From: Acidimicrobiales bacterium
GTDB taxonomy: Bacteria; Actinomycetota; Acidimicrobiia; Acidimicrobiales; SHLQ01
Direction of reading: 5' to 3'
Length of the DNA: 64,000 nt
Assembly (NCBI GenBank): GCA_020629635.1
Contig: JAHDCX010000001.1
Coordinates: 201,043-265,042 of the forward strand
Below the pieces are notes generated by a model that ran no database searches, had not been told where the DNA came from, and saw only the letters and a program-made list of their open reading frames with translations. Numbering within the stretch: position 1 is the stretch's first letter; the number at the start of each line of letters is the position of its first letter. Position numbers and translations under genes: made by a program. Positions 18,599-22,775 of the stretch are shown here, one piece after another.

Positions 18599-19594
18599 GT
18601 GGACTTTCTGACCGAGCCAACCCTGATCGTCGCGCTCATCGAGGTCGTGATCGGTCTGTTCCTGCTCACGAAGGCCGCTGACCTCTTCGTCGATGGGGCG
18701 GTGGCCGTCGCCTCGGCCGCCAACCTGTCTCCCATCGTCGTCGGCGCAGTCATCGTGGGTTTCGGCACCAGCGCACCCGAACTCCTGGTCTCGGGCATTG
18801 CAGCGGCAAACGGCGACCTCGATCTCGGCGTCGGGAACGTCGTCGGTTCGAACGTCGCCAATCTGTCGCTCGTCCTCGGTGCTGCGGCACTGATCGTGCC
18901 GATCTTCGTTACTCGAGCCGTTCTGGCCCGAGAAGCGCCGCTCAGTCTCCTCGGCGTGCTGCTGTTCGCGTTCTTCACGCTCGGCGGGCTCGCCGTCTGG
19001 GAAGGCATCGTGATGCTCGTGGTGCTCGTCGCTGCGCTCTCGTGGGTCGTGTTCGGGGGCAACGAGGACGCGGTCGACGAACTCGACGTCGACCCCGATG
19101 CCAGCATTGGCCGTTCGCTCGGGACGACGCTCGTCGGGCTCGTCGGGACCGTGCTCGGTGCACAACTCATGGTCTGGGGGGCCCTGGCCCTCGCCGAAGA
19201 GTTCGGACTCACCGGCGGCTTCATCGGCTTCACCCTCGTTGCACTTGGTACGTCGTTGCCGGAGCTCGTCACCGCCGTTGCGGCGGCCCGCAAGGGCGAG
19301 ACCGAACTCATCCTCGGCAACCTGCTCGGCTCCAACATGTTCAACAGCCTTGCGGTCGGTGGGGTCATCGCCATCCTCGGCGCTGGCTCGATCGACGACG
19401 AGCTCATGCGGACCTACGGCATCGTCGCCATGGTCATCGTTGCCACCCTCGCGTGGATCTTCATGGTCGGCCGTCGCAAGGTGAGCAAGCCCGAAGCAAT
19501 CATCCTTCTCGCGGTGTACGCGTTTGCGATCATCGCGATCTCCGAGACCGGATTCGGCGAAGGCCTGCGCGACGCCATCGAGTCGATCGTCTGA
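18599..19594 (+). CDS. CaCA-family calcium/sodium (cation) antiporter
   Basis: A 331-residue membrane protein with about ten transmembrane helices in two inverted halves. The two alpha-repeat ion-binding motifs are VGFGTSAPELLVS (about residues 53-65) and VALGTSLPELVTA (about 216-228), followed by GNVVGSN and GNLLGSN respectively, the hallmarks of YrbG-like Ca2+/cation antiporters. An acidic loop (NEDAVDELDVDPDAS) separates the halves. Start GTG 18599 is probably leaderless. Its last 24 codons fall in a 143-bp repeat duplicated at 21408-21480, where an extra tail fragment remains. Confidence 0.92.
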   Translation: MDFLTEPTLIVALIEVVIGLFLLTKAADLFVDGAVAVASAANLSPIVVGAVIVGFGTSAPELLVSGIAAANGDLDLGVGNVVGSNVANLSLVLGAAALIVPIFVTRAVLAREAPLSLLGVLLFAFFTLGGLAVWEGIVMLVVLVAALSWVVFGGNEDAVDELDVDPDASIGRSLGTTLVGLVGTVLGAQLMVWGALALAEEFGLTGGFIGFTLVALGTSLPELVTAVAAARKGETELILGNLLGSNMFNSLAVGGVIAILGAGSIDDELMRTYGIVAMVIVATLAWIFMVGRRKVSKPEAIILLAVYAFAIIAISETGFGEGLRDAIESIV

Positions 19595-19664
19595 GCAGGC
19601 GGGCCACACCCCGTTAGCCTGACGGTGTGGCCGACCGATACTGGGTGGAGACACTCGGGTGTCC
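19522..19664 (+). repeat. Left 143-bp direct repeat bounding an insertion (attL-like)
   Basis: Identical to 21408-21550 except at two positions (19562 G versus 21448 A; 19576 C versus 21462 T). It spans the last 24 codons of the antiporter, the intergenic rimO promoter and the first 12 rimO codons. Sequence identity stops abruptly after ...GGGTGTCC. The antiporter here is intact, while rimO is cut after 12 codons. Confidence 0.95.
19615..19620 (+). promoter_or_regulatory. Duplicated rimO -10 box facing into the insertion
   Basis: TAGCCT lies six bases before the GTG of the truncated rimO copy and is identical to the box at 21501-21506 before intact rimO. Transcription from it would run into the inserted genes. 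Confidence 0.45.
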
Positions 19665-19677
19665 GAGAATTACTTAG
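19627..19677 (+). pseudogene. Truncated 5' fragment of rimO
   Basis: GTG 19627 begins the RimO N-terminus (MADRYWVETLGCP), and after the repeat boundary the frame runs into foreign sequence and stops at TAG 19675-19677, giving at most 16 residues. The intact gene starts at 21513 from the other repeat copy. The fragment keeps the rimO -10 box (TAGCCT, 19615-19620). Confidence 0.9.
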
Positions 19678-19706
19678 ATGACCAAAGGCAAAGGACACAT
19701 ACGGCC

Positions 19707-19934
19707 ATGACCACAACCTCCGCCTCGATGAGCCCCGGTCAGGTCGCTCGACGCCTTTGCGGGAAACGAAGCTACGGGCACACCCTCGAAGCGCTTGGTG
19801 CGGCATTCGGAACGACTCGACCCTTTGACGCGAGCGAGGCGGGCGCGGCTCTTCGTGGGCTGTTGCCCTTCGTTGCTGTCGACTGGACCGCCGTAGGAGC
19901 GCTCTTCGAGCGCGACGTCGTGGCCGCCCGCTGA
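19707..19934 (+). CDS. Orphan 75-residue protein in the insertion
   Basis: A small ORF started at ATG 19707, with AAGGA eleven bases upstream; an in-frame GTG at 19659 lies inside the repeat. The sequence (SPGQVARRLCGKRSYGHTLEALGAAF) has two probable helices and ends VGALFERDVVAAR. I do not recognise a family. It is the first ORF behind the duplicated rimO promoter and might be expressed from it. There is no signal peptide or membrane segment. Coding status is moderately supported by the ribosome binding site and frame length only. Confidence 0.45.
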   Translation: MTTTSASMSPGQVARRLCGKRSYGHTLEALGAAFGTTRPFDASEAGAALRGLLPFVAVDWTAVGALFERDVVAAR

Positions 19935-20228
19935 GGACACCTTCTTTATCCGGCGATCTCGGGCTGAGCTTGTACGCCCTACCAGACAGAGCAAGGCTCT
20001 GGTCGCGGCAACGGCCCGAGCTTCGCTCTTTGTAACGGCTGTTCCCCGTGGAAACACCGCGTGGGTGGTCATGAAGACCGTCGGCTATCGTTGAGCCAGC
20101 GCTGCAAACGCAGCCGAAATAGGAGAGGACTCCCCGCTCTAACGCCGGGAGCCCTCTCGTCATCACACACATTTTGGAGCAGCGAGCTGGCACTCGCTTT
20201 TCCTCACCAGAGATAAGGAGCTACACGC
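19935..20228. other. Gene-free stretch inside the insertion
   Basis: About 290 bases with no convincing ORF. It contains a short GCTGC/GCAGC hairpin at 20101-20114 and the larger hairpin at 20123-20158, followed by an AAGGAG ribosome binding site (20214-20219) for the next ORF. It may hold a terminator and a promoter or a structured RNA. Confidence 0.5.
20123..20158 (+). terminator. Imperfect 14-bp hairpin inside the insertion
   Basis: GAGAGGACTCCCCG (20123-20136) pairs with CCGGGAGCCCTCTC (20145-20158) with two mismatches around an eight-base loop. It could be an intrinsic terminator-like structure for the preceding ORF or a recombination-related palindrome. No long T-run follows. Confidence 0.55.
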
Positions 20229-20576
20229 GTGTATCAAGATCGTAGTGTAATTTTGGCCAATTTGCGAGTGGCGAACAAGGCTCTTGACGAGGCATCTCAA
20301 TGGGCGATGTCTCAGCCCGAGTCGCACCGATGCAGCGGACCACAGAAGCCCTTTAGGTCGAAGGTCACGACAGAGCCGAGGATCCAGGAGGCTCTCGATA
20401 CTTTGGAGTGCGCTCTGGAGTGTGACCCGCCAGAGCAAGTGAGGAGCCGTATCAACGCAGGTGTCGCTGTGCTCAGTCGAGCGCTGTCGGAGGTGGTGGA
20501 AACGAGGCGGCCGGTTCAAGGACGACCGATACCGGAGCTGCCCTTCGCTGGCGGCCGCCGCGTTCCGACCGGTTAG
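20229..20576 (+). CDS. Orphan 115-residue protein in the insertion
   Basis: Started at GTG 20229 with AAGGAG nine bases upstream, one of the best ribosome binding sites in this part of the window. Probably mostly helical: SVILANLRVANKALDEASQWAM, then IQEALDTLECALECDPPEQVRSRINAGVAVLSRALSEVVE, with a proline-rich tail. No family recognised and no membrane segment. Codon usage and GC look less extreme than in the flanking genes, consistent with acquisition. It could be a phage- or plasmid-type accessory protein, but nothing in the sequence proves it. Confidence 0.5.
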   Translation: MYQDRSVILANLRVANKALDEASQWAMSQPESHRCSGPQKPFRSKVTTEPRIQEALDTLECALECDPPEQVRSRINAGVAVLSRALSEVVETRRPVQGRPIPELPFAGGRRVPTG

Positions 20577-20609
20577 TCGTCGCCTCCACCTCCCGGTGAA
20601 ACTGAAGAG

Positions 20610-21179
20610 ATGAAGCTGAGGGACGCTGGCTTCCTGGGCTGCGGCATCGTCATCGGTGTCTTGGTCTCGTGGGTTCTCGGATTGATTCAGCCCACATCGG
20701 GGACGGCTGGCGCGGTCGGGCAGTGGGTCGCCGGGCTGGCAACTGCCGGTGGTGTGTTCTGGACCGCGCAGCAGACCAGAGCGGACGAACGACGACGACA
20801 GGCCAGATCTGCTGATCAGCTTCGGCGATGGGCGCGAGACAACCCCTCTATAGACGTTGCTTTCATCGGGCTTGAAGCACTCAAGTCATTCTCCGGGACA
20901 GCGTTGAGTGATGAGTTTCCGAACCTTCGGAGAGCGTCCGAGATCGTTGCGGACCATGTAAGGGGTCATCAGCCGGGCTCGACTGTCTTACTCGAACGGG
21001 AAGTAGGTGTGCGAGGCCCAGCCGATACGTTCAAGGCTTCGACGCCGACTTACATAAAGCTCGACGCTGCATTTCGAGCGATTAGGCATAGCGCTCTCGC
21101 AGGAAGCGACCTGAGCCCGTACGTTCTCGCTCGACTTGAGTCTGCCATCGTCGATCGCGATGACACGCGAGGCTCTTAG
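20610..21179 (+). CDS. Orphan membrane-anchored protein in the insertion (189 aa)
   Basis: An N-terminal transmembrane segment (about residues 8-27, FLGCGIVIGVLVSWVLGLI) and a second hydrophobic stretch (AVGQWVAGLATAGGVFWTAQQ, about 36-56) are followed by a basic charged region (RADERRRQARSADQLRRWARD) and a soluble helical domain of about 110 residues. The first part resembles small phage or plasmid membrane proteins of unknown role. Start ATG 20610 lies 33 bases after the previous stop, so the two are probably co-transcribed. No known domain is recognised. Confidence 0.55.
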   Translation: MKLRDAGFLGCGIVIGVLVSWVLGLIQPTSGTAGAVGQWVAGLATAGGVFWTAQQTRADERRRQARSADQLRRWARDNPSIDVAFIGLEALKSFSGTALSDEFPNLRRASEIVADHVRGHQPGSTVLLEREVGVRGPADTFKASTPTYIKLDAAFRAIRHSALAGSDLSPYVLARLESAIVDRDDTRGS

Positions 21180-21407
21180 CCGTCGTGTTCGATGGTGTGG
21201 AGGAAGAGGAGGGCCTCGACTTGCTTGTGGTCGCTAACGTCGATAGTCCAGCCTTCGAGCTCTCAACGTAGACGTTCTATCCATGATCGGCGTGCCGTGG
21301 TTTGTGGTGACTTGCGCCTGATGAGGCAGCGTGAACATCTCCGGGTCGCGCTTGCCCACGAGAAATGGCCACCGAGTCGTCTGCACGCAGCGGCCACACG
21401 ACGGATT

Positions 21408-21480
21408 GTTTGCGATCATCGCGATCTCCGAGACCGGATTCGGCGAAAGCCTGCGCGACGCTATCGAGTCGATCGTCTGA
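21408..21480 (+). pseudogene. Duplicated 3' tail of the antiporter gene
   Basis: Encodes the last residues of the antiporter (AIIAISETGFGESLRDAIESIV then stop in the original frame) without any 5' part. The preceding sequence, 21180-21407, has no recognised gene. It is a remnant of the integration or duplication event. Confidence 0.85.
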
Positions 21481-21500
21481 GCAGGCGGGCCACACCCCGT

Positions 21501-21506
21501 TAGCCT
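21501..21506 (+). promoter_or_regulatory. -10 box of rimO (leaderless)
   Basis: TAGCCT ends six bases before GTG 21513 and no ribosome binding site is present, pointing to a leaderless rimO mRNA. The same box is duplicated at 19615-19620. Confidence 0.5.
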
Positions 21507-21512
21507 GACGGT

Positions 21513-22775
21513 GTGGCCGACCGATACTGGGTGGAGACACTCGGGTGTCCCAAGAACGAGGTGGACTCCGACAAGCTCGTCGGGAAACTCGTGGCCGACG
21601 GGCTGGTCGCCGCTGAGCGCCCCGAAGACGCCGATCTGGTCGTCGTCAACACCTGTGCATTCATCGAATCCGCCCGGCAGGAGAGCATCGACACCGTGCT
21701 CGAGCTCCGGGACCGCGCCGAGGGCTCCCGAGTCGTCGTCACCGGGTGCATGGCCGAGCGATACGGCGACGAGCTCGCGGACGCACTCCCCGAGGCCGAT
21801 GCGGTGGCGGGATTCGGCGTGCCGGTCACGCTCGGGGTCAAACCTGCGCAATCCGTCCCGGAGTTCGACCTGCTCAACCTTCCGCGGCCCGCAGCGGCTC
21901 GACCATGGGCGTACGTCAAGATCGCCGAGGGATGCGACCGGAACTGTGGCTTCTGTGCGATCCCGTCGTTTCGAGGTCCACAACGCTCGAGAACGCACGA
22001 GTCGATCCTCGCCGAGGTGGAGGCACTCCATGCATCCGAGGTCGTGCTCGTGGCCCAGGACCTCGCCTCTTTCGGCCGTGACCAGGGGGTCGGTGAACGC
22101 ACGCTCCACGAGCTCGTCGAGCAGGTCGCCGACCGAGTCGAACGGGTTCGGCTCTTGTACCTGTACCCGTCCGATCTCGACGACCGGCTCATCGACGCGA
22201 TTCTGGCCACCGGGGTTCCGTACTTCGATCTGTCGCTTCAGCACGTCAGCCGACCACTCATGCGACGCATGCGTCGATGGGGCGACGGCGAACGATTCCT
22301 CGACCGGATCGATCGGATCCGGACCGCCGAACCCGACGCCGTGTTCCGCTCGAACTTCATCGTTGGTTACCCGGGTGAGACCGAAGAAGACCACGACCGG
22401 TTGCTCGACTTCGTCGAGGCCGCACAGCTCGACTGGTGCGGGTTCTTCGCCTGGTCGCCCGAGGACGGAACACATGCAATGACCCTTGATGGGCGGGTGG
22501 AGGAGTCGGTCGTCCACGAACGACTTCGTGAGTGCAGCGAGCGGCAGGACGAGATCACGGCGAGACGTCGCGACGCGCTGATTGGCGAGACGGTCGAGGT
22601 GCTCGTCGATCACGTCGGTGTCGGCCGTACCCATCGTGAGGCGCCCGAGATCGACGGCGTCGTCCACGTGCGCGACGATCTGGCCGTGGGGGATCTGCAC
22701 CAAGTCGACATCACCGATGCACTCGGTCCCGACCTCTACGCCGGAATCGCCCCCGATGCGGCGGAGCGCACCTAG
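21513..22775 (+). CDS. rimO: Ribosomal protein S12 methylthiotransferase
   Basis: A 420-residue radical-SAM enzyme that methylthiolates an aspartate of ribosomal protein S12. The N-terminal UPF0004 domain holds cysteines in ETLGCPKNE (C12), VVNTCAF and TGCMAERY that bind the auxiliary cluster; the radical-SAM motif is CDRNCGFC with C141, C145 and C148. A C-terminal TRAM-like segment (VEVLVDHVGVGRTHREAPEIDGVV) completes the family layout. MiaB is the closest alternative, but LGCPKNEVDS and the length favour RimO. Start GTG 21513 lies in the right repeat. The pgsA ATG follows the stop directly. Confidence 0.95.
   Translation: MADRYWVETLGCPKNEVDSDKLVGKLVADGLVAAERPEDADLVVVNTCAFIESARQESIDTVLELRDRAEGSRVVVTGCMAERYGDELADALPEADAVAGFGVPVTLGVKPAQSVPEFDLLNLPRPAAARPWAYVKIAEGCDRNCGFCAIPSFRGPQRSRTHESILAEVEALHASEVVLVAQDLASFGRDQGVGERTLHELVEQVADRVERVRLLYLYPSDLDDRLIDAILATGVPYFDLSLQHVSRPLMRRMRRWGDGERFLDRIDRIRTAEPDAVFRSNFIVGYPGETEEDHDRLLDFVEAAQLDWCGFFAWSPEDGTHAMTLDGRVEESVVHERLRECSERQDEITARRRDALIGETVEVLVDHVGVGRTHREAPEIDGVVHVRDDLAVGDLHQVDITDALGPDLYAGIAPDAAERT

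Follow-up and report, generated by a model that had tools for sequence, protein, structure and literature searches.

An orphan-bearing insert between long direct repeats of the rimO start region in an Acidimicrobiales bacterium

A 1,743-bp insert carrying three ORFs was found on the forward strand at 19665-21407 of the window (the whole 64,000-nt stretch of Acidimicrobiales DNA that was analyzed), between two copies of a 143-nt direct repeat of host DNA (Table 1). With slightly more confidence than doubt, we read this insert as a fragment of foreign DNA, probably from a phage or plasmid, that was caught by illegitimate recombination with a 143-bp duplication of the host site. The event is a new case of an already known kind, with orphan content, and the long duplication, which spares rimO and copies its promoter, is the most distinctive point of the case.

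Table 1. Features of the insert and its surroundings, in window positions.
Feature	Positions	Strand	Basis or remark
Calcium/sodium antiporter gene, intact, left neighbor	18599-19594	+	TIGR00367, 192.3 bits (cut-off 179.65)
143-nt direct repeat, left copy	19522-19664	+	Antiporter gene end, rimO promoter region and first rimO codons
Start of rimO, truncated and reading into the insert (16 codons, then TAG)	19627-19677	+	Read from sequence
10-codon frame (ATG..TGA) directly after truncated rimO	19678-19710	+	Stop overlaps ORF1 start (ATGA)
ORF1, 75 aa orphan, probable gene	19707-19934	+	6-nt Shine-Dalgarno AAAGGA at 11 nt; codon score
Strong hairpin, 11-12 bp, in the ORF1-ORF2 gap	20123-20158	+	Fold of 20060-20230
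Second short stem with a few T, before ORF2	20181-20198	+	After the hairpin
ORF2, 115 aa orphan, possible gene	20229-20576	+	6-nt Shine-Dalgarno AAGGAG at 8 nt; weak coding scores
ORF3, 189 aa orphan membrane protein	20610-21179	+	Amino-acid score, hydropathy
28-codon tail and stop of a probable broken convergent gene	21176-21262	-	Codon score
143-nt direct repeat, right copy	21408-21550	+	Leaves rimO with its own upstream region
rimO, intact, right neighbor	21513-22775	+	TIGR01125, 386.6 bits (cut-off 356.95)

Insertion site and direct repeat

The two copies of the repeat are identical at 141 of 143 nt, with mismatches at 19562 and 19576 (left-copy numbering), and both neighboring genes are intact, the end of the antiporter gene lying within the left copy and the start of rimO within the right one. 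At the first of these mismatches, the antiporter tail in the right copy (21448) has a serine codon and resembles several relatives in this, whereas the intact gene in the left copy has a glycine codon; the serine codon is a hint as to which copy is the original one, and not a decisive one. Both copies also hold an inverted repeat, GGCCACACC..GGTGTGGCC, at 19602-19632 around the rimO start, the second arm of which contains the start codon.

The gene rimO was detected in every one of 19 family genomes, one of them being that of the window itself, and an empty site was found in 8 of 10 same-genus relatives, where rimO follows the antiporter gene directly, within 100 bp, without the insert. The other two relatives were uninformative, as one (G010) has no antiporter gene within 1.5 kb and the contig of the other (G017) begins inside rimO; the insert was seen in none of the ten, these two included. 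The GC content of the insert is 0.604 vs 0.652 for the window, and GC at third codon positions is 0.62-0.71 in the insert ORFs vs 0.79-0.84 in the adjacent rimO and antiporter genes. The empty site and the composition of the insert support the insertion that the original prediction had assumed, and its foreign nature.

Transposons and insertion sequences carry a transposase and terminal inverted repeats, and generate target duplications of a few to about 14 bp. Searches with Pfam, PHROGs and NCBIfam profiles detected no recombinase or transposase, integrases included, and no known satellite genes among the three ORFs, and no inverted repeat pair joins the ends of the insert. A transposon or insertion sequence was rejected on the lack of a transposase and of terminal inverted repeats and on the 143-nt length of the repeat, which is far longer than transposon target duplications and was counted in favor of capture by illegitimate recombination.

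A clean direct repeat around a compact insert, with both neighbors intact, would also suit a small integrative element that is non-autonomous, an integrase from elsewhere recognizing its ends and its 143-bp attachment region, and the three ORFs being its cargo. Six tyrosine recombinase matches were found elsewhere in the genome, which favors such an element, and the insert may have moved in trans. Against it, the full-length repeat matches the genome at these two places only and the insert is present in a single copy, its proteins were not found in the same-genus and order relatives searched, and its right end holds the probable gene remnant described below. We regard an integrative element as unlikely.

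Coding content of the insert

The original prediction had named three ORFs with products of 75, 115 and 189 residues, and all three are there at the positions proposed, on the forward strand. Their length is within chance and is no evidence of genes here, as 193 of 1000 dinucleotide shuffles of the insert contained an ORF of at least 189 aa, and five ORFs of at least 75 aa were observed vs a mean of 6.13 in 1000 such shuffles. Coding scores were compared with those of chance ORFs drawn from 2000 shuffles. To train the codon model, 26 ORFs of the window were picked by length and GC pattern or as known neighbors, and the model therefore describes the host and not the donor. The codon score of ORF1 was reached by 0.07% of 8384 chance ORFs and its amino-acid score by 1.25%, and none of 1293 chance ORFs of at least 150 aa reached the amino-acid score or the hydropathy peak of ORF3, the codon score of which was reached by 0.9%. 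The scores of ORF2 are weak, 8.7% and 25.5% of 4577 chance ORFs being as high. Composition thus supports ORF3 and ORF1 as putative coding sequences, and ORF2 shows little coding signal besides its Shine-Dalgarno site.

Two of the ORFs had been said to start after good Shine-Dalgarno sites, unlike their neighbors, and this agrees with the 6-nt matches before ORF1 and ORF2 vs 0 of 26 host genes of the window (2 of 26 for a 5-nt match), the starts of these host genes being taken from the ORF finder and possibly off in some cases. Before ORF3 stands a 5-nt match, at a distance of 10 nt, of a kind found at times in host genes. For ORF2, the case for a possible gene is made mainly by its perfect Shine-Dalgarno site. 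Its product is predicted to be helical, with low confidence (AlphaFold2 model, mean pLDDT 63.6), and a Foldseek search of this model against viral proteins returned nothing at E ≤0.001.

The ORF3 product carries a strong N-terminal hydrophobic segment, with a 19-residue mean hydropathy of 2.50 from residue 8, and its layout comprises one strong and one weak N-terminal helix followed by a helical soluble part. The AlphaFold2 model has a low mean pLDDT (53.1). The product is best seen as a membrane-anchored helical protein, a membrane anchor having been proposed for the last gene of the insert. ORF2 and ORF3 are in the same frame, with one TAG and 11 open codons between them (20574-20609), an arrangement in which read-through or a broken fusion is possible.

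The right-end stretch of the insert is probably the tail of a broken convergent gene. In a 27-codon window on the reverse strand (21182-21262) the coding score was 0.72, a value reached by none of 500 shuffles, and the TAA of this frame (21176-21178) overlaps the TAG of ORF3 (21177-21179), an overlap of the kind seen where convergent genes are closely packed. Since this frame lacks a start codon and runs into a stop upstream, it was taken as a remnant. On the forward strand, the same stretch had a codon score of 0.54 vs 0.72 on the reverse strand, and an amino-acid score of 0.47 vs 0.36. For comparison, the mirror frame had the higher codon score in 39 of 407 host-gene stretches in which it is open, so that the reverse strand is favored for the remnant, not proven. 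Further upstream on the reverse strand (21282-21362) the score was 0.32, which is level with the mean of 0.316 for the best window in shuffles. No match beyond chance was found for the right-end stretch in PHROGs, Pfam, phages or plasmids, and among 377 genomes it matched its own genome only. The three ORFs had been described as the whole cargo of the insertion, which is probably wrong given the probable remnant at its right end; nor is the description as a compact unit supported, in view of that remnant, the common frame of ORF2 and ORF3 with one TAG between them, and the lack of a recombinase.

Several of these observations could be explained if the insert were mostly non-coding or decaying DNA in which only ORF3, perhaps once fused with ORF2 across the TAG, was a gene and nothing works now: the ORF lengths within chance, the weak scores of ORF2, the frame shared by ORF2 and ORF3 with its single TAG and 11 open codons, and the right-end stretch without a start codon. 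However, 11 open codons are often expected by chance, and both the perfect Shine-Dalgarno site before ORF2 and the coding scores of ORF1 and ORF3 argue against decay, which we consider unlikely.

The gap between ORF1 and ORF2 measures 294 nt. The stretch 20060-20230 folds at -66.5 kcal/mol (z -2.91), with 2 of 200 shuffles as good, and might act as an attenuator or terminator or represent a small RNA. Its hairpin at 20123-20158 was not among the calls of the terminator scan, and a degenerate pattern of this hairpin had no match in viral contigs. The folded stretch had no Rfam match up to E 1, and a known Rfam RNA was rejected as its identity.

Relatives and origin of the insert

Profile searches with Pfam, PHROGs, NCBIfam and PADLOC gave no convincing match for the three proteins, as expected from the earlier statement that they belong to no recognized family. 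No relative of ORF1, ORF2 or ORF3 was found among PDB sequences, phage records, plasmids or viral contigs, and no relative of ORF2 or ORF3 in the genome contigs. Among the matches examined, no relative of any of the three was found in 397 genomes of the order, and none of ORF3 in 381 genomes of the phylum; one of the matches outside the examined set is L077, from the phylum (E 2.6e-4, 32% over 69 residues). A blastn search for distant matches with the whole insert found none in plasmids or phages. The collection scans depend on exact matches of short peptides, which limits their reach to close relatives, and distant relatives of the ORFs may therefore exist.

Weak genome matches, at E 1e-4 to 0.01 for ORF2 and 2e-4 to 0.01 for ORF1 and ORF3, were examined in part. 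Those examined were rejected as homologs, being mostly arginine/serine-rich stretches in the wrong frame or antisense, low-complexity sequences, or unrelated proteins. Two candidates for relatives of ORF3 (L055 and L003) were rejected, as all they have in common with it is a layout of a membrane helix followed by a charged helix. Among small phage proteins of unknown function, residues 33-63 of ORF3 weakly match PHROG 18449, its best PHROG (E 0.0052), and a frame in Listeria phage HB17054, its best phage match (31 residues, 42% identity, E 0.4), the latter on the strand opposite to the annotated gene; these matches are insufficient for homology.

The original prediction had pointed to a phage-defence or satellite cargo, that is, a compact membrane-anchored anti-phage defence or satellite operon. 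Shine-Dalgarno sites before the ORFs, a membrane helix encoded by the last gene, the orphan status and the foreign nature of the DNA all agree with such an operon. Nevertheless, neither PADLOC, where the best matches (E 0.033 and 0.053) are at chance level and point to no known defence-system family, nor PHROGs gave a convincing match, and no known catalytic or sensor domain was found in the ORFs with Pfam and NCBIfam. A known defence system was rejected on the PADLOC result. As the searches returned no relatives at all, none could be placed beside phage or defence genes, and there is thus no defence neighborhood to be seen. The idea is left unsupported by these searches and by the best phage similarity given above, and an absence of homologs, which the original prediction had itself named as evidence against it, is what was found and by that wording counts against the idea. 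We consider a defence or satellite operon highly unlikely.

In favor of the capture of a slice of foreign DNA, the ORFs contain no recombinase, the insert has no terminal inverted repeats and a gene seems to be cut at its right end, so that the insert has the look of a piece of some larger DNA. As no donor sequence was found, its phage or plasmid origin is drawn from composition and Shine-Dalgarno use alone. The capture could have proceeded by end joining at a staggered break, a guess from the Ku protein encoded in the genome, or alternatively by one crossover with a circle bearing a copy of the site.

Illegitimate recombination is known to produce small variable segments in bacterial genomes (PMC2884548). 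Like these, the insert is a short region present in one genome, absent at the collinear site in relatives and matching no known mobile element, with no recombinase, transposase or terminal inverted repeats; unlike the segments as described in passages of that source, it is a pure insertion with a 143-bp site duplication. In homology-facilitated illegitimate recombination (PMC3240628), one end of the foreign DNA is joined through homology and the other end illegitimately. Both cases have foreign DNA joined to a chromosome, whereas here no donor is known and a circle crossover or a staggered break would account no less well for the two long copies of the repeat. On direct repeats, the passages of PMC4432121 offer only general remarks about how duplications arise.

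The duplicated rimO promoter

A TANNNT box lies 6 nt before the rimO start, inside the repeat. In its actual form, TAGCCT, the box ends 6 nt before the rimO GTG, at 21501-21515 and again at 19615-19629. In all nine same-genus loci examined, the rimO start follows a TAGYCT or TATCCT box. The gene rimO seems to be transcribed leaderless, which fits these boxes before the start codon. A scan for sigma-70-type promoters called no site. Because the promoter box is part of the repeat, the left copy would start a transcript that runs through 16 rimO codons (from 19627), the TAG and the 10-codon frame into ORF1.

Under capture by illegitimate recombination, the duplication would leave the right-hand rimO with its own leaderless promoter, and the left-hand promoter copy could transcribe the orphan ORFs. 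ORF3 might then be made as a membrane-anchored accessory protein, of a kind carried by many phages and plasmids, with ORF2 as a possible soluble partner. This recalls proto-genes that arise by promoter recruitment, in which a rearrangement places an existing promoter before a previously unexpressed sequence (PMC11101190). Here, too, a copy of a putative existing promoter now stands before another sequence; in contrast to those proto-genes, the DNA downstream of the promoter copy is probably of foreign origin and already coding in part. We give hardly any credence to a more specific reading, in which the insert is a minimal cargo unit that borrows a promoter. On integration at the rimO start it would duplicate a long piece of host DNA, leaving rimO its leaderless promoter, and the other promoter copy would drive a Shine-Dalgarno-led pair of genes, one for a helical protein and one for a new membrane protein whose role would be accessory and perhaps in defence.

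GC-rich DNA such as this gives little reason to take a series of ORFs for genes, and where few host genes start after a Shine-Dalgarno site, such sites help in recognizing foreign ones. If the reading of the insert as captured foreign DNA holds, the locus would be a snapshot of the entry of orphan genes into a genome, in which a foreign scrap is caught and a duplication both spares the neighboring genes and supplies a promoter.
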